Origin: Orobanche coerulescens
Taxonomy: Eukaryota > Streptophyta > Magnoliopsida > Lamiales > Orobanchaceae
Direction of reading: 5' to 3'
DNA length: 64,000 nucleotides
Assembly: GCA_033398695.1 (NCBI GenBank)
Contig: CM065806.1
Location: 43,797,001-43,861,000, forward strand
The position numbers and the translations under genes are program-made. Below are positions 5,684 to 42,246 of the stretch, piece after piece. Numbering within the stretch: the first letter of the stretch is position 1; every line of letters starts with the position of its first letter. The notes under the pieces were generated by a model. It was not told the DNA's origin. It did no database searches and saw nothing but the letters and a program-made list of their open reading frames with translations.

Positions 5684-5695
5684 TGGTATCAGAGC
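5684..5695 (+). other. G1a primer binding site (initiator tRNA-Met type)
   Basis: TGGTATCAGAGC starts 4 nt after the LTR end. It is the standard complement of the 3' end of plant initiator tRNA-Met and primes minus-strand DNA. Confidence 0.9.
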
Positions 5696-6821
5696 TTAGG
5701 TTGTGGAAATCTAGGCTGTCGGATCAGTGGTGTCTATTGAGTTTTGTCTCGTCGGATTTTGTCTGATTGAGTCGTGTCGCGACGCATCATCTGAGTTTGT
5801 TGGTCGTGATTAGTATCGTGGGGCGATCATCATCTTCGTGCGACCTGTGGATGTAAGTCTCCCTTCTTTGTGTTGTGCCTCGTATGATACGAGCTATTTT
5901 TATGATTATTTGTTAAGTGACGGAATCCTATTATGGATTTTGATTTCTTGATACGTGACTATTTGACTCTCATATTTCGTTCATGTGAGGAGTAGTGTTG
6001 CTGGATTGTGCATGTTGGACTATATTTATTTTATCCGCCACGTGAGTTCTTTTGTAATGGCTTTCGGTATTTTACCGACTGAGTTTTATTTCGAAAACCG
6101 ATTCCCTTAACCGAGTTTTTGGCATTATGGCCTTGATCGTTTTGGCAAAATTCTTATGACGGTATTTAGTATTTTGTAAATGGCTTTTGTGAGTTTTTGA
6201 AATATTACCGTCATCGGCCTTTTTTGGCATTTTTGTAAATGGTTTTTAGCCTGGTGAGTTCCGGCGCGGGACCCACGGCGCTATGATGTTCCGTGTATTT
6301 ACCTGAAATTTTTGGGCATTCTAGCCCATTGAATTATCCTTGAAAAACTTGAGTATCTTAGAAAATAAATTTCGAGACATACTTTCAAAATGAATTATTT
6401 CCTCGTGGTACATCCAAGGTGCCACAATATGTTTCAAAATTCTTCTACCTCGAGGACCCAAAATGTTTTGAGATATTCTCAATGTTTTATAAACACTTTT
6501 ACTTAGACCCGAGGGTCGAATATTTCTGAATGTTTTACACCAAAAGGAAAGTGTCCTCATTTTTGTTCAAACGCAAGATGATTTTCAAAGTCTCGACAAT
6601 GATGTCTGTCCAACTTTTTGTAAGGTGATACTCAAGATCAACTAGTGTTTGCAAAATTTTTCTTTCAAAAGGTGGTTGTTTCGTGATGTTTAGTAACTGT
6701 ATGCTGGATATCTTTCGGACCGCTGAGGTCGCCGAACGATACCGCCATTGTTGGGGTGTTTGTATGTGTGTTGCTTTACGATGGTAATCGTTGTAAGTGT
6801 TGCATGTTATGATTTCCTGTT
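5696..6821 (+). other. G1a leader, non-coding
   Basis: About 1.1 kb without a credible ORF. The part at about 6040-6300 resembles the end of the G3 LTR (about 22700-23060): both contain 'ggtatttta.ccgac', 'ttggcatt' and GGTTTTTAGCCTGGTG followed by a GGCGCGGGACCCACGG-like block. Confidence 0.6.
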
Positions 6822-7847
6822 GTGCTGAGTGGTTTCTTATTCAGTATGCTGCGGGGCAGAGGTGGTGGTCGTGGCGACCGGATGCGTGATCGGGATCACG
6901 CTACCGGTGATGGTATTGGTATTGGTGTTGCTACTATTTTGCAGCAAATAGCTACACAGATGACTCAGTTGACTCAGGCAGTTCAGCGCGTTACAGAGGT
7001 GACCCAGAACACTGGCGCAAATCAGTGGCTTCGGGAGGTGATTAGTATGAACCCCCCTCGATTCGCCGGTGTTGCGGATGTGTTGGGCTGGGATGGTTGG
7101 ATTTTCCAGTTGGGAAAGATATTCGAGGCTGTCGATTGTCCTGAAGAGCGGAAGGTACCTATTGCGCAGTACCTTCTTGATAAAGATGCCGCTAATTGGT
7201 GGGAAGCTGTTAAGCCTCGTGATCGTGATGTCACGTGGGCGGAGTTCCAGGCATTGATGGAAGCTGAGTTCTGCCCGAAACCGATTAGAGAGCAAAGGAT
7301 TCACGAATTTTATTTGGCAGAACCGCAAGATATTTCAATGTCACATGCTATAATCGACTATAGCAAACAACTCAGTTATGTGCGAGATCGGGTGAGAACC
7401 GAGGAAGAGAGGATCTTTCATTTTGACAGACGAATGAAGCCAGAGATTCGCGAGTATATGTCAAGACTCACTTGCACTTCGTTGAGGGACTACCAAGATC
7501 GAGTCTTGGCCCGTGAACTAGCTTCGTTATCATCAGAGCGTGTGCCTGAGTCTAAGAAGCAGATGAAGTCCGATGACCGTGTGGACAGTGCAGGAGCTGG
7601 TGGTTCTAGTTCTCAATGTCGTAGTCTTTCTGCTATGAAGCTCTGTCGCTCGTTACGTGGGACTAAGAGTTTCAAGTCGTCTGTTTTGACTCCTGGTAAA
7701 GCCAGGAGGTGTTTTAACTGTAATGTGGCGGGGCATGTCCGTGCACATTGTCCTTCTCCGCTAGTAACGCGTTACAAGTGCGGGCTTGAGGGACACCGGG
7801 TTCAGTTTTGCGAGTTAGTTGCCAAACCTTTCGAGGCACGAACTTGA
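6822..7847 (+). CDS. gag: G1a Gag polyprotein (chromovirus-like), nucleocapsid with one intact zinc knuckle
   Basis: Intact 341-aa frame. Gag assembles the cytoplasmic virus-like particle and packages element RNA. Residues about 70-230 match the retrotransposon gag core (FAG...WIFQLGKIFEAV, NWWEAV, MEAEFCPKPIREQ, LARELASLS). A zinc knuckle CX2CX4HX4C is at residues 297-310. A second knuckle-like stretch about 20 residues later has lost its first Cys (RYKCGLEGH...C). The N terminus is Gly/Arg-rich. Translation may begin at the second Met (6846), just before the RGRGGGRG stretch. No protease or RT follows; the frame ends and the non-coding tail begins. The intact frame in an element otherwise lacking pol suggests Gag was kept by selection or that the insertion is recent. 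Confidence 0.85.
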   Translation: MLSGFLFSMLRGRGGGRGDRMRDRDHATGDGIGIGVATILQQIATQMTQLTQAVQRVTEVTQNTGANQWLREVISMNPPRFAGVADVLGWDGWIFQLGKIFEAVDCPEERKVPIAQYLLDKDAANWWEAVKPRDRDVTWAEFQALMEAEFCPKPIREQRIHEFYLAEPQDISMSHAIIDYSKQLSYVRDRVRTEEERIFHFDRRMKPEIREYMSRLTCTSLRDYQDRVLARELASLSSERVPESKKQMKSDDRVDSAGAGGSSSQCRSLSAMKLCRSLRGTKSFKSSVLTPGKARRCFNCNVAGHVRAHCPSPLVTRYKCGLEGHRVQFCELVAKPFEART

Positions 7848-23109: not shown

Positions 23110-24148
23110 TGTTGGGTACGGAATCGGATATTGCGCCGTGTTGCAGAAGCGTAAATATCAAGTGCGGAAATTTAAAACATACAAGGATTTATAGAGGTTC
23201 GGCTATAAACGAGCCTACGTCCTCTCTCGGTATCTTTTTCTATAGGATCAAGATAAAAACATCTTCTCCTCTCTTCTATCGGTCGAGGTATAACCGTTAC
23301 AATCACGTCTTCTATTGGTCCGTGATAAACCACTTGCACTTGTCTTTGTGTCGGTCCAAGTTAAACCGTTTTCCTTTTCCTAGGACAAGGAATCAACCTC
23401 TCTAGCTTTCTATGGGCACTAGATAAGCCTCACTTGATAGCGATTGTGATTCTAATAATGCCGGATCCTCGATCCTAATAACACCGAATCCAATCGTATC
23501 TTTTCTTTTAACACTCGTGTATGTTTTCGTGAATTCTCACTCAAACACTTACAATTAAGCTCAATATCAACAACAAGAATATGTATAATAGTATCACAAG
23601 TATAGACTATTTGCTCAGGGTTGTTGTACTCAAATAATACCATAGGGATGGTATTTATCGGCTCCATTATCAAACTAGCCGTTAGCTGCCAGACTGCTCA
23701 TTACGTACGTTATATGCTTCCCATTACGTACGCAAACTTATTTACGTACGCTAACCAGACACTGTTACGTACGTTAGATTCTCCCAGATTCAGTCCAGTC
23801 ACATTCGTTTCTTTCTTTACGTACATTATCATACTTCCCATTACGTACATTAATAGTACGTCACTTCTGACATCATATGTCCGTTGCCACCTTTTTGACT
23901 TCGACTCCTCCAACGTTCACTTGTTTGAACTGTATTACGTACGTTATATTACTTCCATTACATACGTAAGTCTGCTTCATTTACGTACGTTAATCATGCT
24001 GAGTTACGTACGTTAGGCTTGTGCAGAACACTATTTTCCAGCTTCGTTTCCTTCGATGCTTGCTTCGTCTCTTCGTTGTTTTGTTTTGCTTATCAACATT
24101 AATCATCAAAACACTTTTAATTTATGTATGGAATAAAATGTTCCAACA
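23110..24148 (-). repeat. C3 LTR 1 (3' LTR of unit 1)
   Basis: 1039 bp. On the minus strand it starts TGTTGGAACATTTTATTCC and ends CGTACCCAACA. A TATA-like GATAAATA (minus) lies at 23652-23659; the other copies read TATAAATA or TATAAATG. Ten TTACGTACGTTA-type sites lie at 23701-24015. Confidence 0.92.
23701..24015. promoter_or_regulatory. C3 LTR 1: phased TTACGTACGTTA palindrome array
   Basis: Sites at 23701, 23724, 23742, 23765 (steps 23, 18, 23); 23817, 23841 (24); 23935, 23958, 23981, 24004 (23, 23, 23). Each is a 12-mer with at most a few mismatches to TTACGTACGTWA. In the element's orientation the array lies directly upstream of the TATA box. The core holds overlapping ACGT (bZIP-type) and GTAC (SBP-box-type) cores. 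Binding is inferred, not shown. Confidence 0.75.
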
Positions 24149-24548
24149 ATCTCCCCCTTTTTGATGATTACAAAACAACACTTCGTCAATGGGATTTACC
24201 TGCGAAAATACAAATATATGTATATGTGTACAGACCAAAATTTTTGACTTTGTCCGTTTTAGTTTCTTCTCCCATTTTTTCTGTCATTTTCGAATTCTCC
24301 TTTTCATTTTTTTTTTATTTTCTCCCCCTTTTAGGGTTAATCTCATTTTCGACTTATTTTTCTCCTTCTCCATTCTCTCCCCCTTTTTGTTTTCATCAAA
24401 AAGTGGATAAAATATCAACTGAAATAAATAATACCAAAATATAAAATATGCATGATACAATTTATGAATAATTGCATAAAGGTTAAAAACTCCCCATGAG
24501 AATAATATCTCCCATTAAAAAATACTCTCCCTGAGTAAAATACAAAAA
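24149..24548 (-). other. C3 unit 1 3' UTR with several polypurine tracts
   Basis: On the minus strand, AAAAAGGGGGAGAT (24149-24162) abuts the LTR. Further GGGGGAG-type tracts lie near 24324-24330 and 24378-24386. Repeated upstream PPTs are a recalled Sirevirus feature. Confidence 0.75.
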
Positions 24549-26089
24549 TCAATTTTTGGGGATCCAACCTATAGTTGGTTTTTGTTTCGAGACATAAACA
24601 ATATTTGAAATATTTGTTCCTTTAGGAACCCAAATTTTCTTAATTTTTATCGTCCGGTGAGGGCTTTTGCAATTTGAAACGTGATGCCTCATTTTCAAAC
24701 ACTTTTCGCAATGGGGTATTTTAAAATTAACGGATTCGTTTTTCGAACGTGGTTTGAATCCTAACTCCTCTTTATTTAAAGTATATTTTTGAACACATAA
24801 CATTTGTTCAAATTTATCGTTGCCGCACGAGAATTTTCTTGTCAAATATTTTAGTTCATCTTGAACTTTTAAAAGATCATTCTTCAAAATATTCTCATTT
24901 TCAATGCATTTTGAATGATCGATTGCGACAAATTTTCCCTTCTCGATAATTTTGGAATTTTCAATTTCCAAAGATTTAATTTTAGACTTAAGGGATTTAA
25001 TTTCCGATAAAGCATTTTGGAAATCCGTATGTAATAACTCAAATGCATCAAAAATTTCGTCACGGGAGGATGTACTTACTTGGCTTTCAACGTCGCTGTT
25101 GTCGAACGAACTCCGTGCCATGAGAGCGAGATTATTTTGATTGATAAAATCATCATCTTCGTCTTCATCACTCCATGTTGCCACGAGAACCTCCTTTTTT
25201 GGTTTGGCTCGGCAATGCTTAGCGAAGTGGCCTGGTTTTCCACATAGTCGACAAGAATTGTCGAACTTCTTAGATTCACTCGAGATATCCTTCTTCCTCC
25301 GGTTTAATAAGGTTTGGAATTTATTAATATTTTTGGCATAATATGCTGCTTCTTCGTTGCTTTCTTCCACCGGGATTTCTTCTTTCTTTTTCGACATATT
25401 AGCCTTCATGGCTAATGATCGTTCCTTTGGCTTCGGCTTGACACTTCGTGATTTTAATACAATCTCATAATTGATTAGTGAACCAACAAGGGCACTAAAA
25501 TCGAGCGTGTTGAGATCTTTAGATTCCATAATCGCGGTCACGGTGCCGTCCCATTCGCTAGGTAGTGATCGTAAAATTTTCTTAACTTTTTCACTACTAG
25601 ATAATGGTTTTCCGAATGACACAAGTCCATTTGTGATGACCGAGAATCGGTCGAGCATATTGGTGATGGACTCGTCACCTTTCATCATGAATAACTCGTA
25701 GTCATGGATAAGCATATTGATTTTCGTCTCCTTGACTTGAGTCGTCCCTTCGTGTGTGATTTCTAGAATTTTCCATATTTCTTTCGCACTCTCACACGAT
25801 GAGATTCGATTGACCTCTTCCGGATTTAAGGCACAAAATAAGAGTTCAGTAGCCTTACAATTTAGATGGTCATTTTTCCAATCGGCATCGTCGTATTCTT
25901 CGAAAGATTTGAGCGTACCGTCGGATTTGATAGGAACTTTCGGGCCAAGGCAAATGATCTTCCAAATCTCTATATCGTAGGCACGAATAAAGATCGACAT
26001 CTTTTCTTCCATGTCAAATAATTTGAGCCATCAAAGAACGGTGGTCGGTTGAGAGCAAGGCCTTCGACAGGAGCAAGTTGAAATGCCAT
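24549..26089 (-). pseudogene. gag: C3 unit 1 Gag (longest intact frame of the array)
   Basis: The main frame is open from Met at 26012 to 24549 (487 aa). Features: N-terminal Gag domain (IRAYDIEIWKII, YDDADWKNDHLN, EIWKILEITHEG, ILRSLPSEWDGTVTAI), zinc knuckle CRLCGKPGHFAKHC at residues about 253-266, an acidic DEDEDDD stretch, and a coiled coil (ALSEIKSLKSKIKSLEIENSK). It ends with KIWVPKGT...GWIPKN, the join where protease normally begins. An upstream ATG at 26089 opens a 1-nt-shifted frame (MAFQLAPVEGLALNRPPFF...NYLTWK) that fits the true Gag N terminus. The same 1-nt shift is present in all three units. Listed as a pseudogene for that reason, though the 487-aa frame could still be made. 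Confidence 0.75.
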
Positions 26090-26132
26090 TGGATCTTTTC
26101 TCCTCGGATGTTAAGCCGCGTATTGGAGTACC

Positions 26133-26146
26133 GCTCCGATACCAAT
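26133..26146 (-). other. C3 primer binding site, unit 1
   Basis: Minus strand reads ATTGGTATCGGAGC directly next to LTR 2; identical at 29168-29181 and 32202-32215 for units 2 and 3. Confidence 0.85.
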
Positions 26147-27185
26147 TGTTGGGTACGGAATCGGATATTGCGCCGTGTTGCGGAAGCGTAAATATCAAGT
26201 GCGGAAATTTAAAGCACACAAGGATTTATAGAGGTTCGGCTATAAACGAGCCTACGTCCTCTCTCGGTATCTTTTTCTATAGGATCAAGATAAAAACCTC
26301 TTCTCCTCTCTTCTATCGGTCGAGGTATAACCGTTACAATCACGTCTTCTATTGGTCCGTGATAAACCACTTGCACTTATCTTTGTGTCGGTCCAAGTTA
26401 AATCGTTTTCCTTTTCGTAGGACAAGGAATCAACCTCTCTAGCTTTCTATGGGTACTAGATAAACCTCACTCGATAGCGATTGTGATTCTAATAATGCCG
26501 GATCCTTGATCCTAATAACACCGAATCCAATCGTATCTTTTCTTTTACCACTCGTGTATGTTTTCGTGAATTCTCACTCAAACACTTACAATTAAGCTCA
26601 ATATCAACAACAAGAATGTGTATAATAGTATCACAAGTATGGACTATTTGCTCAAGGTTGTTGTACTCAAATAATACCCTAGGGGTGGCATTTATAGGCT
26701 CCATTATCAAACTAGCCGTTAGCTGCCAGACTGCTCATTACGTACGTTATATGCTTCCCATTACGTACGCAAGCTTATTTACGTACGCTAACCAGACACT
26801 GTTACGTACGTTAGATTCTCCCAGATTCAGTCCAGTAAAATTCGTTTCTTTCTTTACGTACGTTATCATACTTCTCATTACGTACATTAATAGTACGTCA
26901 CTGCTGACATCATATGTCCGTTGCCACCTTTTTGACTTCGACTCATCCAACGTTCACTTGTTTGAACTGTATTACGTACGTTATATTACTTCCATTACAT
27001 ACGTAAGTCTTCTTAATTTACGTACGTTAATCATGCTGAGTTACGTACGTTAGGCTTGTGCAGAACACTATTTTCCAGCTTCGTTTCCTTCGATGCTTTC
27101 TTCATCTCTTCGTTGTTTTGTTTTGCTTATCAACATTAATCATCAAAACACTTTTAATTTATGTATGGAATAAAATGTTCCAACA
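26147..27185 (-). repeat. C3 LTR 2 (shared by units 1 and 2)
   Basis: 1039 bp. TATA (minus TATAAATG) at about 26690-26697. TACGTACGTA array at about 26738-27052 with the same spacing as LTR 1. Confidence 0.92.
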
Positions 27186-27582
27186 ATCTCCCCCTTTTTG
27201 ATGATTACAAAACAACACTTCGTCAATGGGATTTACCTGCGAAAATACAAATACATGTATATGTGTACAGACCAAAGTTTTCGACTTTGTCCGTTTTAGT
27301 TTCTTCTCCCATTTTTTCTGTCATTTTCGAATTCTCCTTTTCATTTTTTGATTTTCTCCCCCTTTTAGGGTTAATCTCATTTTCGACTTATTTTTCTCCT
27401 TGTCCATTCTCTCCCCCTTTTTGTTTTCATCAAAAAGTGGATAAAATATCAACTGAAATAAATAATACCAAAATATAAAATATGCATGATAGAATTTATG
27501 AATAATTGCATAAAGGTTAAAAACTCCCCATGAGAATAATATCTCCCATTAAAAAATACTCCCCCTGAGTAAAATACAAAAA
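27186..27582 (-). other. C3 unit 2 3' UTR and polypurine tracts
   Basis: Near-identical to 24149-24548; PPT (minus AAAAAGGGGGAGAT) next to LTR 2. Confidence 0.75.
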
Positions 27583-29124
27583 TCAATTTTTGGGGATCCA
27601 ACCTATAGTTGGTTTTTGTTTCGAGACATAAACAATAATTGAAATATTTGTTCCTTTAGGAACCCAAATTTTCTTAATTTTTATCGTCCGGTGAGGGCTT
27701 TTGCAATTTGAAACGTGTTGCCCGATTTTCAAACACTTTTCGCAATGGGGTATTTTAAAATTAACGGATTCGTTTTTCGAACGTGGTTTGAATCCTAACC
27801 CCTCTTTATTTAAAGTATATTTTTGAACACATAACATTTGTTCAAATTTATCGTTGCCGCACGAGAATTTTCTTGTCAAAGATTTTAGTTCATCTTGAAC
27901 TTTTAAAAGATCATTCTTCAAAATATTCTCATTTTCAATGCATTTTGAATGATCGATTGCGACAAATTTTCCCTTCTCGATAATTTTGGAATTTTCAATT
28001 TCCAAAGATTTAATTTTAGACTTAAGGGATTTAATTTCCGATAAAGCATTTTGGAAATCCATATGTAATAACTCAAATGCATCAAAAATTTCGTCACGGG
28101 AGGATGTACTTACTTGGCTTTCAACGTCGCTGTTGTCGAACGAACTCCGGGCCATGAGAGCGAGATTATTTTGATTGATAAAATCATCATCTTCGTCTTC
28201 ATCGCTCCATGTTGCCACGAGAACCTCCTTTTTTGGTTTGGCTCGGCAATGCTTAGCGAAGTGGCCTGGTTTTCCACATAGTCGACAAGAATTTTCGAAC
28301 TTCTTAGATTCACTCGAGATATCCTTCTTCCTACGGTTTAATAAGTTTTGGAATTTATTAATATTTTTGGCATAATATGCTGCTACTTCGTCGCTTTCTT
28401 CCACCGGGATTTCTTCTTTCTTTTTCGACATATTAGCCTTCATGGCTAATGATCGTTCCTTTGGCTTCGGCTTGACACTTCGTGATTTTAATACAATCTC
28501 ATAATTGATTAGTGAACCAACAAGGGCACTTAAAATCGAGCGTGTTGAGATCTTTAGATTCCATAATCGCGATCACGATGCCGTCCCATTCGCTAGGTAG
28601 TGATCGTAAAATTTTCTTAACTTTTTCACTACTAGATAATGGTTTTCCGAATGACACAAGTCCATTTGTGATGACCGAGAATTGGTCGAGCATATTGGTG
28701 ATGGACTCGTCACCTTTCATCATGAATAACTCGTAGTCATGGAGAAGCATATTGATTTTCGTCTCCTTGACATGAGTCGTCCCTTCGTGTATGATTTCTA
28801 GAATTTTCCATATTTCTTTCGCACTCTCACACGATGAGATTCGATTGACCTCTTCCGGATTTAAGGCACAAAATAAGAGTTGAGTAGCCTTACAATTTAG
28901 ATGGTCATTTTTCCAATCGGCATCGTCGTATTCTTCGAAAGATTTGAGCGTACCGTCGGATTTGATAGGAACTTTCGGGCCAAGGCAAATGATCTTCCAA
29001 ATCTCTATATCGTAGGCACGAATAAAGATCGACATCTTTTCTTCCATGTCAAATAATTTGAGCCATCAAAGAAAGGTGGTCGGTTGAGAGCAAGGCCTTC
29101 GACAGGAGCAAGTTGAAATGCCAT
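27583..29124 (-). pseudogene. gag: C3 unit 2 Gag, frameshifted
   Basis: Same protein as unit 1 but split. The N-terminal part starts at 29047 and runs to about 28531, where one extra T (CACTTAAAATCG against CACTAAAATCG) shifts the frame. The C-terminal part with knuckle CRLCGKPGHFAKHC continues to 27583. The N-terminal 1-nt shift near 29047 is shared with units 1 and 3. Confidence 0.88.
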
Positions 29125-29181
29125 TGGATCTTTTCTCCTCGGATGTTAAGCCGCGTATTGGAGTACCGCTCCGATACCAAT

Positions 29182-30219
29182 TGTTGGGTACGGAATCGGA
29201 TATTGCGCCGTGTTGCGGAAGCGTAAATATCAAGTGCGGAAATTTAAAGCACACAAGGATTTATAGAGGTTCGGCTATAAACGAGCCTACGTCCTCTCTC
29301 GGTATCTTTTTCTATAGGATCAAGATAAAAACCTCTTCTCCTCTCTTCTATCGGTCGAGTATAACCGTTACAATCACGTCATCTATTGGTCCGTGATAAA
29401 CCACTTGCACTTATCTTTGTGTCGGTCCAAGTTAAATCGTTTTCCTTTTCGTAGGACAAGGAATCAACCTCTCTAGCTTTCTATGGGTACTAGATAAACC
29501 TCACTCGATAGCGATTGTGATTCTAATAATGCCGGATCCTTGATCCTAATAACACCGAATCCAATCGTATCTTTTCTTTTACCACTCGTGTATGTTTTCG
29601 TGAATTCTCACTCAAACACTTACAATTAAGCTCAATATCAACAACAAGAATGTGTATAATAGTATCACAAGTATAGACTATTTGCTCAAGGTTGTTGTAC
29701 TCAAATAATACCTTAGGGGTGGTATTTATAGGCTCCATTATCAAACTAGCCGTTAGCTGCCAGACTGCTCATTACGTACGTTATATGCTTCCCATTACGT
29801 ACGCAAGCTTATTTACGTACGCTAACCAGACACTGTTACGTACGTTAGATTCTCCCAGATTCAGTCCAGTAAAATTCGTTTCTTTCTTTACGTACGTTAT
29901 CATACTTCTCATTACATACATTAATAGTACGTCACTGCTGACATCATATGTCCGTTGCCACCTTTTTGACTTCGACTCCTCCAACGTTCACTTGTTTGAA
30001 CTGTATTACGTACGTTATATTACTTCCATTACATATGTAAGTCTTCTTCATTTACGTACGTTAATCATGCTGAGTTACGTACGTTAGGCTTGTGCAGAAC
30101 ACTATTTTCCAGCTTCGTTTCCTTCGATGCTTGCTTCGTCTCTTCGTTGTTTTGTTTTGCTTATCAACATTAATCATCAAAACACTTTTAATTTATGTAT
30201 GGAATAAAATGTTCCAACA
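29182..30219 (-). repeat. C3 LTR 3 (shared by units 2 and 3)
   Basis: 1038 bp; TATA (minus) near 29722-29730; TACGTACGTA array at about 29770-30088. Confidence 0.92.
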
Positions 30220-30616
30220 ATCTCCCCCTTTTTGATGATTACAAAACAACACTTCGTCAATGGGATTTACCTGCGAAAATACAAATACATGTATATGTGT
30301 ACAGACCAAAGTTTTCGACTTTGTCCGTTTTAGTTTCTTCTCCCATTTTTTCTGTCATTTTCGAATTCTCCTTTTCATTTTTTGATTTTCTCCCCCTTTT
30401 AGGGTTAATCTCATTTTCGACTTATTTTTCTCCTTGTCCATTCTCTCCCCCTTTTTGCTTTCATCAAAAAGTGGATAAAATATCAACTGAAATAAATAAT
30501 ACCAAAATATAAAATATGCATGATAGAATTTATGAATAATTGCATAAAGGTTAAAAACTCCCCATGAGAATAATATCTCCCATTAAAAAATACTCCCCCT
30601 GAGTAAAATACAAAAA
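30220..30616 (-). other. C3 unit 3 3' UTR and polypurine tracts
   Basis: Near-identical to the corresponding part of unit 2. Confidence 0.75.
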
Positions 30617-32158
30617 TCAATTTTTGGGGATCCAACCTATAGTTGGTTTTTGTTTCGAGACATAAACAATATTTGAAATATTTGTTCCTTTAGGAACCCA
30701 AATTTTCTTAATTTTTATCGTCCGGTGAGGGCTTTTGCAATTTGAAACGTGTTGCCCGATTTTCAAACACTTTTCGCAATGGGGTATTTTAAAATTAACG
30801 GATTCATTTTTCGAACGTGGTTTGAATCCTAACCCCTCTTTATTTAAAGTATATTTTTGAACACATAACATTTGTTCAAATTTATCGTTGCCGCACGAGA
30901 ATTTTCTTGTCAAAGATTTTAGTTCATCTTGAACTTTTAAAAGATCATTCTTCAAAATATTCTCATTTTCAATGCATTTTGAATGATCGATTGCGACAAA
31001 TTTTCCCTTCTCGATAATTTTGGAATTTTCAATTTCCAAAGATTTAATTTTAGACTTAAGGGATTTAATTTCCGATAAAGCATTTTGGAAATCCATATGT
31101 AATAACTCAAATGCATCAAAAATTTCGTCACGGGAGGATGTACTTACTTGGCTTTCAACGTCGCTGTTGTCGAACGAACTCCGGGCCATGAGAGCGAGAT
31201 TATTTTGATTGATAAAATCATCATCTTCGTCTTCATCGCTCCATGTTGCCACGAGAACCTCCTTTTTTGGTTTGGCTCGGCAATGCTTAGCGAAGTGGCC
31301 TGGTTTTCCACATAGTCGACAAGAATTTCCGAACTTCTTAGATTCACTCGAGATATCCTTCTTCCTCCGGTTTAATAAGTTTTGGAATTTATTAATATTT
31401 TTGGCATAATATGCTGCTACTTCGTCGCTTTCTTCCACCGGGATTTCTTCTTTCTTTTTCGACATATTAGCCTTCATGGCCAATGATCGTTCCTTTGGCT
31501 TCGGCTTGACACTTCGTGATTTTAATACAATCTCATAATTGATTAGTGAACCAACAAGGGCACTAAAATCGAGCGTGTTGAGATCTTTAGATTCCATAAT
31601 CGCGGTCACGGTTTCCGTCCCATTCGCTAGGTAGTGATCGTAAAATTTTCTTAACTTTTTCACTACTAGATAATGGTTTTCCAAATGACACAAGTCCATT
31701 TGTGATGACCGAGAATCGGTCGAGCATATTGGTGATGGACTCGTCACCTTTCATCATGAATAACTCGTAGTCATGGAGAAGCATATTGATTTTCGTCTCC
31801 TTGACATGAGTCGTCCCTTCGTGTGTGATTTCTAGAATTTTCCATATTTCTTTCGCACTCTCACACGATGAGATTCGATTGACCTCTTCCGGATTTAAGG
31901 CACAAAATAAGAGTTGAGTAGCCTTACAATTTAGATGGTCATTTTTCCAATCGGCATCGTCGTATTCTTCGAAAGATTTGAGCGTACCGTCGGATTTGAT
32001 AGGAACTTTCAGGCCAAGGCAAATGATCTTCCAAATCTCTATATCGTAGGCACGAATAAAGATCGACATCTTTTCTTCCATGTCAAATAATTTGAGCCAT
32101 CAAAGAAAGGTGGTCGGTTGAGAGCAAGGCCTTCGACAGGAGCAAGTTGAAATGCCAT
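30617..32158 (-). pseudogene. gag: C3 unit 3 Gag, frameshifted
   Basis: The N-terminal part (from 32081) and C-terminal part (to 30617) are joined by a frame change near 31612, where GGTTTCCG replaces GGTGCCG. The position differs from the unit 2 lesion, so these two frameshifts arose after the units were copied. Knuckle and coiled coil are preserved. Sequence is closer to unit 2 than to unit 1. Confidence 0.88.
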
Positions 32159-32215
32159 TGGATCTTTTCTCCTCGGATGTTAAGCCGTGTATTGGAGTAC
32201 CGCTCCGATACCAAT

Positions 32216-33254
32216 TGTTGGGTACGGAATCGGATATTGCGCCGTGTTGCGGAAGCGTAAATATCAAGTGCGGAAATTTAAAGCACACAAGGATTTATAG
32301 AGGTTCGGCTATAAACGAGCCTACGTCCTCTCTCGGTATCTTTTTCTATAGGATCAAGATAAAAACCTCTTCTCCTCTCTTCTATCGGTCGAGGTATAAC
32401 CGTTACAATCACGTCTTCTATTGGTCCGTGATAAACCACTTGCACTTATCTTTGTGTCGGTCCAAGTTAAATCGTTTTCCTTTTCGTAGGACAAGGAATC
32501 AACCTCTCTAGCTTTCTATGGGTACTAGATAAACCTCACTCGATAGCGATTGTGATTCTAATAATGCCGGATCCTTGATCCTAATAACACCGAATCCAAT
32601 CATATCTTTTCTTTTACCACTCGTGTATGTTTTCGTGAATTCTCACTCAAACACTTACAATTAAGCTCAATATCAACAACAAGAATGTGTATAATAGTAT
32701 CACAAGTATAGACTATTTGCTCAAGGTTGTTGTACTCAAATAATACCCTAGGGGTGGTATTTATAGGCTCCATTATCAAACTAGCCGTTAGCTTCCAGAC
32801 TGCTCATTACGTACGTTATATGCTTCCCATTACGTATGCAAGCTTATTTACGTACGCTAACCAGACACTGTTACGTACGTTAGATTCTCCCAGATTCAGT
32901 CCAGTAACATTCGTTTCTTTCTTTACGTACGTTATCATACTTCTCATTACGTACATTAATAGTATGTCACTGCTGACATCATATGTCTGTTGCCACCTTT
33001 TTGACTTCGACTCCTCCAACGTTCACTTGTTTGAACTGTATTACGTACGTTATATTACTTCCATTACATACGTAAGTCTGCTTCATTTACGTACGTTAAT
33101 CATGCTGAGTTACGTACGTTAGGCTTGTGCAGAACACTATTTTCCAGCTTCGTTTCCTTCGATGCTTGCTTCGTCTCTTTGTTGTTTTGTTTTGCTTATC
33201 AACATTAATCATCAAAACACTTTTAATTTATGTATGGAACAAAATGTTCCAACA
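32216..33254 (-). repeat. C3 LTR 4 (5' LTR of unit 3)
   Basis: 1039 bp. Plus-strand end reads GGAACAAAATGTTCC (perfect palindromic arms), whereas LTRs 1-3 read GGAATAAAATGTTCC. It shares this base with LTR 5 (39867-40905). Followed by the TTGTG duplication. Confidence 0.92.
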
Positions 33255-33259
33255 TTGTG
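33255..33259. repeat. Target-site duplication of the C3 array, right copy (TTGTG)
   Basis: Identical to 23105-23109. Confidence 0.95.
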
Positions 33260-33617
33260 AAACCTAGACGTGTGTGTTATGTGGCTCTACCGGTACGATA
33301 GTAGCGTGATTTTTGAAAATGAGTTTTTTCTGACTTTTGAGTCAAATCGATTTTTGGAGTTTCCAAAATTTTCGAGATCTTTTCAAACTGCTATTTGTGA
33401 TATTGGTGTGTGTTGGTTGTGTTGAGACTTCGTATGGGAGTCGTGTGCTAGTATCACAGGAGATATTGGCTTCACGCACCTGTAAGTATATTGGTTTGGT
33501 TATTTCGCTTGTGGCGACACTTGATTGTTTTGTGATGAGTTGGAAATTTTGGATTTATCTGTTGTTGGCGACAGGTTGCAAGTTTCGAGGACGAAACTTA
33601 TCATAAGGGGGGTAGTA
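33260..33617 (+). other. G3: short internal remnant with stem-loop and polypurine tract
   Basis: About 360 bp of non-coding sequence, all that separates the primer-site side of G3 from its 3' LTR. It ends with the inverted repeat AAGTTTCG-AGGA-CGAAACTT (33580-33599) and PPT ATAAGGGGGGTAGTA. A second copy lies at 40911-41266. The G3 coding region is missing. Confidence 0.7.
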
Positions 33618-33733
33618 TGTAATACCCGGATTTTCAGTATAAATTTTTCGCGTTATTTTATCTGAGGTATATTGTATAGCTTGGTGTCTATACAGTATGG
33701 ATAAAATAAATTGATAACCGAGACAGTTATACT
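33618..33733 (+). repeat. G3 3' LTR start, truncated by G2a
   Basis: Starts TGTAATACCCGGATTTTCAG after the PPT; identical in kind to 41267-41383. Cut after ATACT (33729-33733) by the G2a insertion. Confidence 0.8.
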
Positions 33734-34203
33734 TGTAACACCCCGAGATATTCAGAATTATTACAGCGCCGTAAACCCTTTAAGTAAGGATTTACAAGGC
33801 TAAATAAAAGAAATGTAAATATAATTCAACCTGACAACTGAAGTTCAAAATACAGAACTGGTTCAACTGATTCAAAGAGTTAACTTATACAACCATATCG
33901 AAAATGACATTGTTAAAACACACGTACTCGAGTACGAAAGTGAACCAAGAAGACAAATAAAAATAAACATCAACCACATCACTGAGCCATTTTATCGTCC
34001 TGTCGGTACTGTGGTTGCTTCCCCGCTCCTCGGCTACCTGAACATCAAAACAATGTCCACACCCGAAGGGGTTAGCAAAACAATGCTAGTACAAGTATCA
34101 TAATACATAAATCATCAGTGCATCATAAAACAGGCAAAACGGACTTCCGTCATCGGAATCCAACGATGTGAATCCTCACGATTCCATCAACACAATACAG
34201 GGT

Positions 34204-34380
34204 AATCCAGCGATACAGCGCCCTTGGTATAGATCCCCATGATGATCCCGTCGTACCAACGCATGGTGGAAAACCCGTCCAGCGATCCAGCGCCCTCAGC
34301 ATAGATCCCCATGATGATCCCGTCGGACCAACGCATGGTGGACATTCGATCCAGCGCCCTCAGCATAGATCCTCATGACC
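34204..34380. repeat. Tandem repeat in G2a LTR (about 73-bp unit, 2.4 copies)
   Basis: Units share CAGCGCCCT, AGATCCCCATGATGATCCCG and CCAACGCATGGTGGA; the third copy is partial. Confidence 0.75.
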
Positions 34381-35586
34381 CCCCCTTGGATCATTTATAC
34401 CATAAACCAATCAATTATGCATACATATATGCATTTCAATATGTTCATCAATACGAACAATTAACACGAATACCACGAGAAATTAAAGAAATAGATCTCA
34501 TATTCGACAACATGAACAAAACCATATGCATGATCAAAGTTCTAATATGAATCAAACTCAACAAATGATACATGCCTCAAAAACGGCAAGAATGAAATAC
34601 TCCAACAAACGTCATGCGTCCGTATGTCACCGCCCACGATCGACCCCTATGCAAGGCTCGGACCTTGTTCAAAAAGAGATACAAGGAACTTAACATACCA
34701 CTCGACACTAACATACGATCATCGAATACTTATATTAGGGTCTTAAAGTAGTGACGCTAGGTTGGTTCACGGTTATAACACTAGATAAGAACTGAACCGG
34801 AAACGATAAGGCACTACAGGAGAGTTGAACGATCATTTAGAGGATGAAATACCGATGTTTAAAAGTTCGATGTTTTACAAGGTATTGAAGATTTCGTGTT
34901 TTAATAAGGGATTAAATTCTAAATCCTCATATGACCGACTATTATGATTTTACCACCAATGTTACTCAAGATGACAAGCATGCTCGAATATTACGCAAGG
35001 AAAACGATACTACGGTGATCCGGTTTGAGTTCAAAGACTTGGATGATAAATCAACCTCAAGAACATGGAGAATATTGTCAAAGCCAATTCTTCTAACATA
35101 CATGAATTACCCAGTTGAACATAAAAAGGGTTCAGAGAATCTAACTAAAATCATGCTTATTACTTCGACGAATTAAGGATACTCCATGTTAAGGTTTTCA
35201 TCCACCGAGGCTATCTCAATACTCTACGTAATGGAAGAAAGACAAGGTATAATCGGGTTCTAAACTTCAAAATATGGTGCTGGACTCAAAAGATCATTAA
35301 CTAATCCAATGATTTCCGAAACAAGCTCAAAGTATAGCTAAGAATGTAAATTCTAGCTCGGTGAATCGTAACATACCTTAAGAGATGTAAGAATAAAGAA
35401 GGTCTTCAATAAACTCTTCACCGGAAGCTTGAACACCAATCTACAAGGCCTAAGCTCCCCAAGAACCGTCTCAGAAGATGATATGAAGGATAAGAGGTGA
35501 TGAAAGATCTCCAGAACATGAATAATCGGCCAAACGAAAGGTGAGAAATGAAATAGGGTCGAGGTCTATAAATAGAATTCTGGGCA

Positions 35587-35963
35587 TTACGTACGTTATG
35601 CAATTACCCTTACGTACGTAACAAACTTAACGTGCGTTATACTTTAGCCTTAGCGTACGTAATTGTCTGAACAGAATTCACTAACCTGATTTCGCCATTT
35701 CCTTACGTACGTAATCACAAGGGTTTTACGTACGTAATATCCATGTCCTTAGCGTACGTAAAACATGCACCATAGCGTACGTAACACCTATGTCCAGGTT
35801 CACGCGGAAATCACACGAATCTTCCCCGGCCCTTCCTCGGCCCACACACGCCGACCCTTATCCGAACCCAAGTTGACTTATCTTACGTACGTTAAGATCA
35901 TCATATAACGTACGTAATACTGAATCTTTAGCGTACGTTATGGACGCCTAATAGCGTACATAA
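35587..35963. promoter_or_regulatory. G2a LTR: three tetrads of TTACGTACGTAA-type palindromes
   Basis: Sites at 35587, 35610, 35628, 35651 (steps 23, 18, 23); 35703, 35726, 35750, 35773 (23, 24, 23); 35883, 35906, 35929, 35952 (23, 23, 23). Variants are TAGCGTACGTAA and TAACGTACGTAA. The nearest site is roughly 12-16 bp from the TATA box in the element's orientation. Confidence 0.75.
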
Positions 35964-36113
35964 GTACGTGCAGAATCATGCATGAAATGTTGAAGATATA
36001 TATAAACATAAGGGCACAAATACGGGAAACCAATCTACGATTTACAACATCACGAATTCGAAATAATATAAGGTCGAGTACAAGGTAAATACACCATTTA
36101 TCCGGGCATTACA

Positions 36114-36150
36114 TACTACCCCTCTAAAAAGAAGTTTCGGCCCGAAACTT
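36114..36150 (-). other. G2a polypurine tract and upstream stem-loop
   Basis: Minus strand: inverted repeat AAGTTTCG-GGC-CGAAACTT (36132-36150), then TCTTTTTAGAGGGGTAGTA, then the LTR. Confidence 0.8.
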
Positions 36151-36223
36151 AAAACAAAAATAATTCCGGGTATCTCGACTTCATACTCTCCTCTGTCTCC
36201 CATGTTGCTTCTTCGACTCCATG

Positions 36224-36747
36224 TCACGGCCACTGAACTTTTACCAAGGAGATCGGTTTACTCCTCAACTGCTTGACTCGACTCTCGAGTATATTGATTG
36301 GTCTCTCTTCGAAGGTGCTGTCATTAGCTATCTCGATCTCGTCGAAATCAATAATATGACTGGGATCTGGTACATACTTCCGCAAATGGGATACGTGAAA
36401 CACGTTGTGAACATGACTCAGCGATGGTGGCAAGGCCAACTGTATGCTAAATCCCTAACTCTCTCGAGGATCTCAAATGGTCCAATATATCTCGGAGTTA
36501 GCTTACCTTTCCTCCCAAAACGGAAAATTCCTCGCGTAGGAGACACCTTCAATAGTACGTGGTCCCCAATGTCGAACTCTAGTGGGCGACGACGCACGTA
36601 TGCATAAGACTTCTGTCGACTCTGGGCAGTCAACAGTCTTTCCCGAATCAAAGCTATCTTCTCTTGAGTCTGAACTATCAATTCCGGTTCCGTCCCGATC
36701 AAATCCGAAGAATCATCCCAGCACAGGGGTGATCGGCATCTCCTCCC
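36224..36747 (-). pseudogene. G2a integrase C-terminal region
   Basis: Two overlapping frames. 36418-36702 carries ELIVQTQEK, RRRPLEFDIGDHVLLKVSP and GKLTPRYIGPFEILERV (GPY/F-type module). 36224-36439 carries HNVFHVSHLRKYVPDPSHII and ends SLVKVQWP, typical of chromovirus integrase tails. A frameshift after LERV separates them. A TAA at 36748-36750 (after APFEAL) separates them from the catalytic core. Confidence 0.85.
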
Positions 36748-37667
36748 TTACAAAGCTTCAAATGGTGCCATCTTAATAGAAGCATGCCAACTATTATTGT
36801 AGGTGAATTCAATCAATGGCAAATGAATTTCCCAATCAGTTGACCAATCCGAAGCACAAGCTCTCAGCATGTCTTCTACTGTTTGTATAGTCCTTTCGGA
36901 CTGACCGTCCATTTGAGGATGATAAGCCGTGCTAAAGTTCAGCTCGGTCCCCAAAGCCCTATGAACTGCCTTCCAGACGTGCGACACAAAGCAACCATCT
37001 CGATCTGAAACAATGGTCTTCGGCGTCCCATGCTGACTATCTCTATAATAAATACTCGTGCCAATTTCTCTGGTCCCCAAGTGTCTTTAATTCCTAGGAA
37101 ATGAGCCGACTTGGTTAGTCGATCAACTATAACCCAAATCATGTTCATTCCCGTCTTGGTCCTTGGCATATTGGTGATGAAATCCATCGAGATATCCTCC
37201 CACTTCCACTCAAGAATCGGAAGCGGTTTTAACATTCCGGCAGGTCGCCGATGTTCAATCTTAACCTGCTGACAAGTCAAACACTTCGAAACGTACTCTG
37301 CTATATCCTTCTTTATATTTCCCCACCAGAAGTTTTGTTTTAGATCCTTATACATCTTACTGCTGCCTGGGTGAATAGAATAGGGAGCGATGTGAGCTTC
37401 CTTCAAAATTGTCCGTCTCAAATCATCATCATCGGGAACGCAAAGTCGACTTTGAAATCTCAGAAATCCATCATCTTGTATAACGAATCCTGGGGCTTTT
37501 CCTTTCTTTACTTCGTCACATAATCGAAGGTTCAGAGAATCGTTCAGCTGCTTAGATTTGATTTCCTCGACTAGGGACGAAGTCAGTTCCATCACATATA
37601 GTTTCCCTTGGATTTCTGGTGACCATATTTCAATCCCTTCGCGGATCAGTTCTCGTTGAATGCTAGT
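36748..37667 (-). pseudogene. G2a integrase (zinc-binding and catalytic core)
   Basis: H2C2 zinc module (HIAPYSIHPGSSKMYKDLKQ, then CLTCQQVK), catalytic core starting DFITNMPRTKTGMN and VDRLTKSAHF, then after a frameshift near 37000-37060 SDRDGCFVSHVW, YHPQMDGQSERTIQ and NNSWHASIKMAPFEAL. The D...D...E residues can be placed in the combined frames. A TAA at 37668-37670 separates this from RNase H. Non-functional. Confidence 0.88.
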
Positions 37668-38657
37668 TTAGGACGTAAGTGCTTCCAACACTCGAAGAGA
37701 AACAAGTTTACGGCTCAATGCATCGGCTACTACGTTTGCTTTACCCGGATGATAGAGAATTTCCAAGTCGTAATCCTTGATCAATTCCAGCCACCTTCTC
37801 TGCCTCATGTTTAATTCTTTCTGACTGAAAATGTACTTGAGGCTTTTATGATCTGTAAAGATCTGAAAATGGGTGCCGTATAAATAATGTCGCCAAATAT
37901 TCAAGGCAAAGACCACAACTGCTAACTCCAGATCATGAGTCGGGTAATTAACTTCGTACGGTTTTAATTGCTGAGAAGCATAGGCAATCACCTTATCCTT
38001 TTGCATCAACACACATCTCAGACCCTGATTTGAAGCGTCGCTGTATACTATGAATCCATCAGTTCCATCTGGTAATACTAATATAGGTGCTGTCGTCAGT
38101 CTCTTCTTAAGTTCATCAAAACCAGCCTGACATTTCTCATCCCACGTGAACTTTTGAGCTTTCTGTAATAGCTGAGTGAGTGGACGAGCAATTTTGGAAA
38201 ATCCCTCTACAAAACGGCGATAATATCCAGCAAGTCCTAAGAAGCTTCGGCCTTCTTTCACGTTATTAGGAGCTTTCCATTCCAATATTGCTTTGACTTT
38301 TTTCGGGTCCACCTGAACTCCGTCAGTTGATATCACATGCCCTAGGAAGGTTACTTCCCTAAGCCAGAACTCGCATTTGGAAAGCTTCGCATAAAGCTGT
38401 TCATTTCTCAAGGTGCTCAAAACCACACGCAAATGCTCGGCATGCTCCTCTGCGTCTTTCGAATATATCAAGATGTCATCGATGAAGACGACCACAAATT
38501 TATCCAAATATTCTAAGAATACCCGATTCATCAATTGCATGAATACCGCAGGAGCATTAGTAAGTCCAAATGGCATCACTACAAATTCATAATGCCCGTA
38601 CCGGGATCTGAAAGCAGACTTCGGTATATCTGATTCCTTAATTCTCAACTGATGGTA
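37668..38657 (-). pseudogene. G2a RT (second part) and RNase H
   Basis: [24 protein letters not shown], catalytic [28 protein letters not shown]. RNase [55 protein letters not shown]. Open from 38648 to 37671. The RT frame continues upstream past a single TGA at 38658-38660, where a Gly is expected (LRS-stop-YHQL). Confidence 0.92.
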
Positions 38658-38660
38658 TCA

Positions 38661-39566
38661 TGATCGCAAATCAATCTTCGAGAATACCCTTACCCCTTGC
38701 AGTTGATCAAACAAGTCGTCGATCCGAGGTATAGGATACTTATTCTTGATTGTCACTTTGTTGAGCTCCCTGTAATCAATACATAATCGGAGGGATCCGT
38801 CTTTCTTCCGGACAAAGAGAACGGGTGCTCCCCAAGGAGAAACGCTAGGTTGAATATAACCCTTCTGTAATAATTCCTCCAATTGCTTCTTTAGTTCATA
38901 CATCTCGGTTGGCGCCATGCGGTATGGTGCTCTGGAAATAGGAGCGGCTCCAAGCTCTAATTCGATAGTGAACTCCACTTCTCTCTGCGGAGGTAACCCA
39001 GGTAGTTCTTCAGGAAATACATCTGATAATTCATTCACAACTGGAATAGATGAGAGCTCTACTCCTTCTTCTTTCCTCATGGCATAGCACCAAAATCCAT
39101 GACATCCCTGCTTCAGTAATTTCACGGCTTTCATTGCTTTGATCAATTTTCTCGAGCTTCCCGGTCTCCATCCTCTGAATAAGTGTTCAGATCCGTCATC
39201 AGCAATGATAGAAATGACTCTCTTTCGGTAATTCAGAATAGCTCCATAACGGTTGAGCCAATCGTCTCTGAGAATTAAGTCGTCACCATGTATGTCAACT
39301 ACAATAAGATTTGATGGCCAATCTCTCCCTCCTATAGACACTGGAAAATCTCTAGCTTCTAGGGTTCCCACAATATTCTCTCCATTCGGTAATCCCACAA
39401 CATAAGGTTCACAGTCATACAAGCACGAGATTTTCAAACGATTAACACAGTTCAAAGATATAAAAGAATGCGTAGCTCCTGAATCGAATAAGACACTAAC
39501 TGGTTGCAAAAGGATCTGAATCGTACCTGATGCAACAGCTGTGTTCTGATCGTCTGACTTCTTCAT
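38661..39566 (-). pseudogene. G2a protease and first part of RT
   Basis: Aspartic protease motif [13 protein letters not shown] near residues 28-40, followed by IILDDWL-like residues (here [15 protein letters not shown]). RT start: [79 protein letters not shown]. Ends at TGA 38658-38660. The Met at 39566 is internal to the polyprotein. Confidence 0.92.
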
Positions 39567-39804
39567 CTCGTAAATACGCGGAGGAACGGACCCAGCGTTG
39601 GATGCCTCTTTTTTCCCAACATTCTGCTGCTGGAAACCGCTTTGCTGCGTCTGGTTTACACTAGTGTCCTTCGGAACCGGTACAGAAGTGCGAGTACCAA
39701 AAGATCAAGTCGCATTTCCACAAAATGTTGCGCGATGCCCTTCCTGTCCACACTCGAAACAGGTCACAACAGGCGCGAAACAGTCACGTCGAACAGCTGT
39801 GTAA
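39567..39804 (-). pseudogene. G2a end of gag (zinc knuckle) and linker
   Basis: On the minus strand a knuckle CFECGQEGHRATFC (CX2CX4HX4C) is readable near 39730-39775, followed by a stop and a linker to protease. No gag sequence is found upstream of about 39804. Confidence 0.75.
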
Positions 39805-39863
39805 GATCCTCGAGGAGAGGGTCTACGGCGTGTAATATCCCTGAGTGGATTGGGGGTGTTACA
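39805..39863 (+). repeat. 59-bp scrap: 3' end of a G1 LTR
   Basis: GATCCTCGAGGAGAGGGTCT...GGGGGTGTTACA matches the G1 LTR terminus; it is closer to G1b (complement of 60557-60615) than to G1a. It ends exactly at the LTR boundary. Confidence 0.8.
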
Positions 39864-39866
39864 AAT

Positions 39867-40905
39867 TGTTGTGTATGGAATCGGATATTGCGCCGTGTTG
39901 CGGAAGCGTAAATATCAAGTGCGGAAATTTAAAGCACACAAGGATTTATAGAGGTTCGGCTATAAACGAGCCTACATCCTCTCTCGGTATCTTTTTCTAT
40001 AGGATTAAGATAAAAACCTCTTCTCCTCTCTTCTATCGGTCGAGGTATAACTGTTACAATCACGTCTTCTATTGGTCCGTGATAAACCACTTGCACTTGT
40101 CTTTGTGTCGGTCCATGTTAAACCGTTTTCCTTTTCGTAGGACAAGGAATCAACCTCTCTAGCTTTCTATGGGTGCTAGATAAACCTCACTCGATAGCGA
40201 TTGTGATTCTAATAATGCCGGATCCTTGATCCTAATAACACCGAATCCAATCATATCTTTTCTTTTACCACTCGTGTATGTTTTCGTGAATTCTCACTCA
40301 AACACTTACAATTAAGCTCAGTATCAACAACAAGAATGTTTATAATAGTATCACAAGTATAGACTATTTGCTCAAGGTTGTTGTACTCAAATAATGCCAT
40401 AGGGATGGTATTTATAGGCTCCATTATCAAACTAGCCGTTAGCTGCCAGACTGCTCATTACGTACGTTATATGCTTCCCATTACGTACGCAAGGTTATTT
40501 ACGTATGCTAACCAGACACTGTTACGTACGTTAGCTTCTCCCAGATTCAGTCCAGTAACATTCGTTTCTTTCTTTACGTACGTTATCATACTTCTCATTA
40601 CGTACGTTAATAGTACGTCACTGCTGACATCATATGTCCGTTGCCACCTTTTTTACTTCGAATCCTCCAACGTTCACTTGTTTGAACTGTATTACGTATG
40701 TTATATTACTTCCATTACATACGTAAGTCTGCTTCATTTATGTACGTTAATCATGCTGAGTTACGTACGTTAGGCTTGTGCAGAACACTATTTTCCAGCT
40801 TCGTTTCCTTCCATGCTTGCTTCGTCTCTTCATTGTTTTGTTTTGCTTATCAACATTAATCATCAAAACACTTTTAATTTATGTGTGGAACAAAATGTTC
40901 CAACA
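39867..40905 (-). repeat. C3 LTR 5 with duplicated G3 flank
   Basis: 1039-bp LTR of the C3 family preceded by AAT (left over from the primer site) and followed by TTGTG (40906-40910) and the same G3 tail as LTR 4. It shares the GGAACAAAATG variant with LTR 4. TACGTACGTA array at about 40456-40772; TATA (minus) at about 40410-40417. Confidence 0.9.
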
Positions 40906-41266
40906 TTGTGAAACCCAGGCGTGTGTGTTATGTGGCTCTACCGGTACGATAGTAGTGTGATTTTTGAAAATGAGTTTTTCTGACTTTTGAGTCAAATCGA
41001 TTTTTGGAGTTTCCAAAATTTTTGAGATCTTTTCAAACTGCTATTTGTGATATTGGTGTGTGTTGGTTGTGTTGAGACTTGGTATGGGAGTCGTGTGCTA
41101 GTATCACGGGAGATATCGGATTCACGCACCTGTAAGTATATTGGTTTAGTTATTTCGCTTGTGGCGACACTTGATTTTTTTGTGATGAGTTGGACATTTT
41201 GGATTTATCTGTTGTTGGCGACAGGTTGCAAGTTTCGAGGACGAAACTTATTATAAGGGGGTAGTA
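40906..41266 (+). other. G3 internal remnant, second copy
   Basis: Near-identical to 33255-33617, with stem-loop at 41230-41249 and PPT ATAAGGGGGTAGTA. Non-coding. Confidence 0.8.
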
Positions 41267-42246
41267 TGTAATATCCGGATTTTCAGTATAAATTTTTCGC
41301 GTTATTTTATCTGAGGTATATTGTATAGCTTGGTGTCTATACAGTATGGATAAAATAAATTGATAACCGAGACAGTTATACTGGTGTGATTATCGTTTTT
41401 GATTGACAGATTTATTCAGGATATGTTGTATCAGGTTGAACTGATTTGGATATCAGGTATACCGTATGAGAATATTTTTGGATTCAGTATGTGTATTCAG
41501 TATGCCGTATGTTCGTATTCGGTATGTCGAGACGTCGGACAGGAACAGTTGGATTTTTGGCTAAGTATAAAGGCCATTACGTACGTTAAGCCTTGGAGTT
41601 TACGTACGTAAAATGTTTTAGCTTACGTACGTTATATAGTGTACATAACGTACGTAACAAGAGGAATCGGACAGTAGGGCCCGTGGTCGGCGGCTTTCGG
41701 CGCAGATGTGGACAGGTGAGTCAACGGATGTAGTTACGTACGTTATACAGGGTGTATTACGTACGTAATACGAGTATAATACTATAGCAAGTCAACATAC
41801 GTATTACGTACGCAACGGAATAAGTGTTACGTACGTTACGGGGCGGCTGGCCGAGTCGTGGCCGAGAGGACCTGTAGTGGCCGAGCATGGTCAGCAGTGA
41901 CTCGCAGGGATGGCCGAGCATGGTCGGCAGTGACTTGCAGGGGTGGCCGATCACGGTCGGCAGTGACACGCAGGGATGGCTAGGACTGGCCGATTACGTA
42001 CGTAAGGCTGTGGCCACTTACGGCCGTAAGGCCCAGTTACGTACGTAAGCCAGCTGCCGGTTACGTACGTAAGGGTGCCGAACGGACTGGGTAGTGAATA
42101 GGCCATGGCCGGTTACGTACGTAAGCCATGGCCGGTTACGGCCATAATGGTCCGGCAGGTCCCGCCTATTTAAAGGCCTGGACCGAGTCATCCGGCCATT
42201 TTCATGTTTTCTCTTCATTTCTTCACGATTTCTTCAGCAAAATTGA
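41267..42246 (+). repeat. G3 3' LTR start, second copy, truncated by C2
   Basis: Starts TGTAATATCCGGATTTTCAG. The first TATA-like TATAAAGG (41565) sits before the palindrome array. A better placed TATTTAAAGGCC is at 42167, followed by a T/C-rich start region. It contains TACGTACGTA sites and GGCCGAGCATGGTCGG repeats. Cut by C2 at 42247. Confidence 0.8.
41577..42147. promoter_or_regulatory. G3 LTR: phased TTACGTACGTAA palindromes plus GCCGAGCATGGTCGGC block
   Basis: Sites at 41577, 41600, 41623, 41646 (23, 23, 23); 41734, 41757 (23); 41804, 41827 (23); 41994, 42018, 42037, 42061 (24, 19, 24; 42018 is TTACGGCCGTAA); 42113, 42136 (23). Between about 41848 and 41975, GGCCGAGCATGGTC(A/G)GCAGTGA recurs with a period near 40 bp. 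The last site ends about 20 bp before TATA at 42167. Confidence 0.75.

Follow-up and report, generated by a model that had tools for sequence, protein, structure and literature searches.

The 64,000-nucleotide window analyzed here (Orobanche coerulescens, contig CM065806.1, positions 43,797,001 to 43,861,000 of the forward strand) is plant DNA crowded with nested long terminal repeat (LTR) retrotransposons, and three of the families (C3, G2a and G3) carry arrays of a 12-bp palindromic site inside the LTR, between the LTR start and a TATA-like box (the U3 region). The arrays are considered putative U3 docking sites of a single sequence-specific DNA-binding protein, symmetric and probably homodimeric, that would serve many LTR families; a probability of roughly 0.68 is assigned to this reading. 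The conserved part of the site consists of two inverted TWRCG half-sites, and the sites follow a recurring grammar, i.e. pairs at 23 bp, a gap between pairs of 18-21 or 23 bp, and a gap between blocks of 50-53 bp. The observation is confirmed to extend far beyond the window.

A set of 36 sites was taken from one LTR per family (C3, 10 sites; G2a, 12; G3, 14). Strand-counted matches with up to two mismatches total 159 in the window (shuffles: mean 8.8, largest 17); all window sites with no or one mismatch to TWRCGTACGYWA fall in C3, G2a or G3, as do 60 of the 60 exact occurrences of TWRCGNNCGYWA. T1, C4 and A12 are invariant across the 36 sites, and the edge of the motif is sharp at 12 bp, the flanking positions holding at most 0.2 bit. 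In a scan for exact palindromes (8, 10 and 12 bp) that excluded AT-only and two-letter words, only ACGTACGT-centred words recurred three times within 300 bp.

Read toward the TATA box, the ten sites of the C3 LTR have steps of 23/23/23, 94, 24, 52 and 23/18/23 bp, and the same ten sites are present in five LTR copies on the minus strand (23701..24015; 26738..27052; 29772..30086; 32807..33121, in the LTR 32216-33254; and 40458..40772, in the LTR 39867-40905). The twelve G2a sites (35587..35963, minus strand) are spaced by 23/23/23, 110, 23/24/23, 52 and 23/18/23 bp, and the fourteen G3 sites (41577..42147, plus strand) by 23/23/23, 88, 23/47/23, 167, 24/19/24, 52 and 23 bp. Two G3 sites have the centre GC: TTACGGCCGTAA (42018..42029) with both half-sites intact and without GTAC or ACGT, and TTACGGCCATAA (42136..42147) with a single half-site intact. 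All coordinates and steps quoted in an earlier annotation of this DNA (the original prediction) were recovered, and its list was extended by the C3 pair at 23817/23841, the G3 sites at 41734, 41757, 41804, 41827, 42113 and 42136, and the five C3 LTRs. Overall, 22 of the 33 neighbour steps in the window are 23 or 24 bp, compared with a mean of 1.6 and a maximum of 9 in 20,000 random placements within the same spans. With gaps ranging up to 170, 120 and 60 bp, the neighbour test for the 18/52 combination gave 10, 25 and 565 in 200,000, respectively; permuting the observed gaps alone gave 7,774 in 200,000.

For the host genome (3,646,015,169 bases, 1279 contigs), the word TTACGTACGTWA was counted 292,328 times on the plus and 291,790 times on the minus strand, and its reversed word 7,699 and 7,439 times; the form with A at position 11 enters the counts of both strands. 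A systematic sample of twenty 10-kb stretches, at preset places on ten contigs, contains 122 sites with the exact dyad TWRCGNNCGYWA (TWRCG-NN-CGYWA) in 11 of the 20 stretches, and 85 of these sites have a neighbour at 22-24 bp. Dyad controls with changed letters gave 2, 3, 0 and 3 matches in the twenty stretches, and controls with centres of 3, 6 and 0 bp gave 0, 2 and 2. With three stretches added (230 kb of 3.65 Gb), 141 sites were found in 13 of 23 stretches; among the 83 neighbour steps of at most 60 bp, 45 measure exactly 23 bp. The control with a 1-bp centre gave 15 matches, six of them phased, so that this centre is possibly a real minor form. Eleven-base relatives with a 1-bp centre, e.g. 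TTACGACGTAA, were also observed in loci L025, L032 and L034, some of them at 22-23 bp steps.

Thirty arrays, each with at least three sites at no more than two mismatches, were collected from the window, from the 23-kb first-hit loci L007-L009, L011 and L014, and from the twenty stretches; L010, L012 and L013 were excluded as overlapping. With the sites masked, blastn (at least 60 bp, E 1e-4, single linkage) placed them in 12 groups without detectable spacer similarity, two of which were dropped for too few 22-24 bp steps. In one array from each of the 10 usable groups, 64 of 101 steps are 22-24 bp and 49 are exactly 23 bp (null mean 7.9, maximum 18). An excess of such steps elsewhere in the genome had been set beforehand as the test of the original prediction, and it is present both here and among the 122 dyad sites. 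Steps of 17-21 bp with two neighbours are flanked on both sides by 23 or 24 bp in eight of eight cases, and gaps of 50-53 bp account for 9 of the 27 gaps in the 30-140 bp range, in 6 of the 10 groups. The group containing G2a comprises 11 arrays, several of them ordered 23/23/23, 106-129, block, 50-53, 23/18/23; a C3 relative in L028 has the order 23/18/23, 52, 23, 95, 23/23/23. Coding sequence of both gypsy and copia type is present in the stretches with arrays, and an LTR start adjoining the array was seen in L028 and L034 only.

The position of the arrays just upstream of a TATA box, as proposed originally, was borne out: the last site lies 41 bp (C3), 12 bp (G2a) and 19 bp (G3) from the TATA-like box. 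This box is TATAAATA in C3 (located in the copy at 32807..33121) and TATTTAAA in G3 (42167..42174, plus strand); in G2a it is TATTTATA on the minus strand, with canonical TATAAATA on the plus strand (approximately 35567..35575). Among 26 arrays, six of which are C3 copies, 17 have a TATA-like word within 70 bp of the array edge, compared with 13% of random intervals, and in 16 of these 17 the word is at a single edge; G3 was scored as a miss because its last pair falls outside the array limits used.

The three families are not fully independent. The C3 LTRs are in minus-strand orientation, and a purine tract precedes TGTTGGAACA. The C3 gag open reading frame (ORF) matches the copia-type gag of Pfam; among the best 120 of 557 protein matches, its closest named relatives are two Orobanche gracilis proteins (73% identity with 61% of the query covered, and 78% with 41% covered) and an O. 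minor protein (54% identity, 63% covered), and three unnamed proteins, also near the top, reach 51-54% over 98%. The LTR of G2a runs from 36113 down to 33735 on the minus strand, and its pol domains are in gypsy order (protease, reverse transcriptase, RNase H, integrase zinc-binding), with many plant relatives among the best 120 of 7454 matches. The plus-strand G3 LTR begins at 41267; all three plus frames of 40906-41266 contain stop codons, and no coding part of G3 was recognized there. G3 is placed on the gypsy side because its LTR start aligns with that of G2a (48 identical columns out of 71; score 46, against at most 17 in 2000 shuffles). C3 is at shuffle level with either family around the LTR start. 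The claim of three families unrelated in their LTR ends thus holds for C3 and fails for G2a and G3, which are related, and the window supplies two independent backgrounds.

The 2-bp centre of the dyad is TA in 72, CA in 26, GC in 11, TG in 5, CG in 3 and others in 5 of the 122 sampled sites. Entire arrays are built on TAGCGCACGCTA, TAGCGCGCGCTA or TTACGGCCGTAA, with GC, CA or CG as the array-wide centre, and all eight sites of L035 have GC or CC centres. The left half-site equals the right in 79 of 122 sites (global permutation, 43.8; within-locus permutation, mean 62.5 and maximum 76 in 2000), as a homodimer would demand, though copies from the same family are not independent. Overlapping bZIP (ACGT) and SBP (GTAC) cores had been noted in the site originally. 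The core of SBP/SPL factors is GTAC, which was found in 31 of 36 window and 72 of 122 sampled sites, and ACGT in 33 of 36 and 57 of 122, the window counts being partly circular because the sites were picked by likeness to the palindrome. Neither core is present in 44 of the 122 exact dyad sites; a site can therefore do without an SBP or bZIP core, and neither is supported as the recognized core. The NAC half-site is of TWRCGT type and was found, on one strand or both, in 34 of the 36 sites of the window and, from the centre counts, in 105 of 122; like the bZIP and SBP cores, it is missing from part of the sites. In passages of one report, TACGTA is termed an A-box and a potential bZIP and NAC target (PMC8309469). 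A chance ORF spanning the C3 array, used as a protein query, yielded 40 candidates, of which none reached E 0.1.

A single binding protein is favoured on the anatomy of the arrays, from which we infer binding itself, contacts between dimers, activation, and the use of one protein for all site variants. The protein would recognize two facing TWRCG half-sites around a centre that varies by family (TA, CA, GC, CG); dimers would be placed as pairs 23 bp apart, the next pair following at 18-21 or 23 bp and the next block at 50-53 bp, a spacing which suggests that adjacent dimers touch or are bridged. Assembly beside the TATA box would then lead to more LTR transcription, or the promoter would be spared silencing. 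Binding on one face of the helix, as proposed originally for the 23-bp step, was rejected on geometry: at 10.5 bp per turn each step turns by about 69 degrees, and the sites of a 23/23/23 tetrad stand at 0, 69, 137 and 206 degrees. Plant LTR families are usually regarded as having family-specific promoters. We propose only tentatively that one dimeric protein, coded by the host or by an element, might serve as the shared key to a large fraction of this genome's LTR retrotransposons, copia and gypsy elements having converged on one spacing grammar while the dyad centre drifted. If so, unrelated elements would be switched, or kept from silencing, together, and a multi-family dyad of fixed spacing with hundreds of thousands of exact copies would suggest that a single factor underlies the concerted activity of the repeats filling the genome; the host family, Orobanchaceae, is parasitic.

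Several observations weigh against a shared binding array. The C3 sites were spread by duplication, as probably were those of one-word arrays of TAGCGCACGCTA type, and resemblance among the sites of a family therefore reflects descent in part. The C3 sites are only weakly conserved: non-CpG positions in the five LTRs vary at 0 of 82 in sites, 5 of 73 in spacers and 33 of 770 in the rest (0/82 against 38/843; Fisher 0.042), a weakness due to four of the five LTRs forming one tandem array. The CpG positions of C3 vary as often in sites (8 of 38) as in the rest (15 of 76; p = 1), all eight site differences being C/T or G/A at CpG. Furthermore, the 50-53 bp range was widened from 52 bp after inspection, a looser superposition test was not significant, 9 of the 26 arrays have no TATA-like word nearby, and no array adjoins the LTR start at L032:8088.

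Descent of the arrays from a single ancient LTR module, whether by inheritance or by transfer between copia and gypsy elements, with later loss of spacer likeness, is considered unlikely. C3 and G2a do have an identical block order, both with 52 and 23/18/23, and register-aligned identities of 26/74, 27/74 and 34/101 were equalled by 237, 157 and 383 of 5000 shuffles; for C3/G3, however, the identity is 17/74 (3983 of 5000 shuffles as high), the between-family spacer sets are at shuffle level (227, 470 and 217 of 500), the three U3 regions with sites masked give a best blastn match of E 0.09, and the 12 array groups are without detectable likeness. Two of the four register-aligned comparisons reach 3-5% (uncorrected), which leaves room for an old exchange, and a faint old relation between the arrays of the families is possible from these alignments. 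Of the shared, exchanged promoter module proposed originally, the shared spacing-coded U3 array stands and recurs in other copies and families; its recent horizontal exchange is not supported by the masked sequences. A functionless tandem repeat, with a 23-bp unit multiplied through slippage or unequal crossing-over, would explain that some arrays are dominated by one word and that spacers within C3 are alike (0.468 against 0.386; 1 of 500 shuffles); this is highly improbable for the arrays as a whole, given that G2a and G3 have like sites and unlike spacers (275 and 108 of 500 shuffles) and that identical steps recur among groups without sequence likeness.

It is rather unlikely that the arrays are chiefly an anti-silencing or silencing target, at which a bound protein, possibly encoded by a single transposon, would strip DNA methylation from the element or deposit it there in the manner of VANC, and other families sharing the motif profit or suffer. 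Passages of one report describe VANC targets as dense short-motif arrays in non-coding DNA of transposable elements, with VANC6 motifs also in the unrelated AT9TSD1 (PMC5735166); in the present arrays every site has two CpGs, and the L027 stretch codes for a MULE protein with a weak match to the FAR1 DNA-binding domain. The VANC motifs themselves differ and form no arrays here (YAGTATTAY, three window matches, two within arrays; AGTTGTMC, none), VANC21 sites are of single orientation whereas the present sites are palindromic, and no candidate protein was linked to the sites; in anatomy, this explanation overlaps with the single binding protein favoured here. Pairing of adjacent palindromes in RNA hairpins or cruciforms is hardly tenable. 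The fold of one G2a piece is better than that of its shuffles (z -2.86, 1 of 200), as palindromes must be; neighbouring sites, however, lack compensating changes (2.0 mismatches when paired with each other, compared with 1.94 between any two sites from the same family), and RNA hairpins were rejected on this ground.

Repeated activator boxes are known from plant LTR U3 regions, e.g. Tnt1. The present arrays resemble them in having short sites repeated ahead of an LTR TATA box, and differ in using one dyad with a fixed 23, 18-21 and 50-53 bp geometry in many families. The U3 region of human T-cell leukemia virus type 1 has three imperfect 21-bp repeats with an ACGT-type core and a known viral co-activator; the likeness lies in phased repeats with such a core in U3, and the difference in the three imperfect repeats and the known co-activator. 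For moso bamboo, heat-dependent factors are reported to interact with a 5' LTR (PMC8656106). The target arrays of VANDAL VANC proteins, as far as described in the passages cited above, are similar in their dense short motif in non-coding DNA and their evolution by duplication, and their motif is found in an unrelated element as the present motif spans families; their motif is different and directional, and they belong to DNA transposons, whereas the present arrays are palindromic and lie in LTRs (PMC5735166). In a literature text search, such arrays were described in no title or abstract start among the matches listed; the 12-mer itself was matched by two papers, neither of which concerns retrotransposons by its title, and SBP, NAC, bZIP, palindromes and spacing are unmentioned in the searched passages of PMC11656987.

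Outside plants, a phage contig from IMG/VR (L001:5761-5931) has eight TTACGTACGTAA-like sites at 22-23 bp. Portal and terminase matches identify it as a bacterial phage, so the same word and step can arise independently. The phage array directly precedes a 98-aa gene with weak, below-cut-off matches to CopG/RHH (ribbon-helix-helix) proteins. The pair pattern, searched in genome contigs, was matched at five loci (L002-L006) of two metagenome-assembled genomes of rumen spirochaetes, with 2 to 5 copies of the word per locus at an exact 22-bp step; these loci were set aside.

Within the window, region 23110-33254 contains four C3 LTRs in alternation with three internal parts, each about 2 kb long and coding for gag only, and is a tandem LTR-gag array belonging to a non-autonomous copia element; the first unit has gag as one long ORF of 493 aa, and the other two have it split. 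A segment comprising a C3 LTR, the G3 3' end and the G3 LTR start is present in two copies (32209-33733 and 39860-41382; about 97% identity). The G2a LTR end sits within a G3 LTR at 33734-33735, with the uninterrupted G3 copy around 41382, and the downstream part of the G2a LTR contains a direct repeat of about 100 bp (34206-34378; 85%). In L027, the MULE transposase ORF with the weak FAR1 match lies at 4457-6970, in the same stretch as a palindrome array, and an ORF near it has a weak otubain match.

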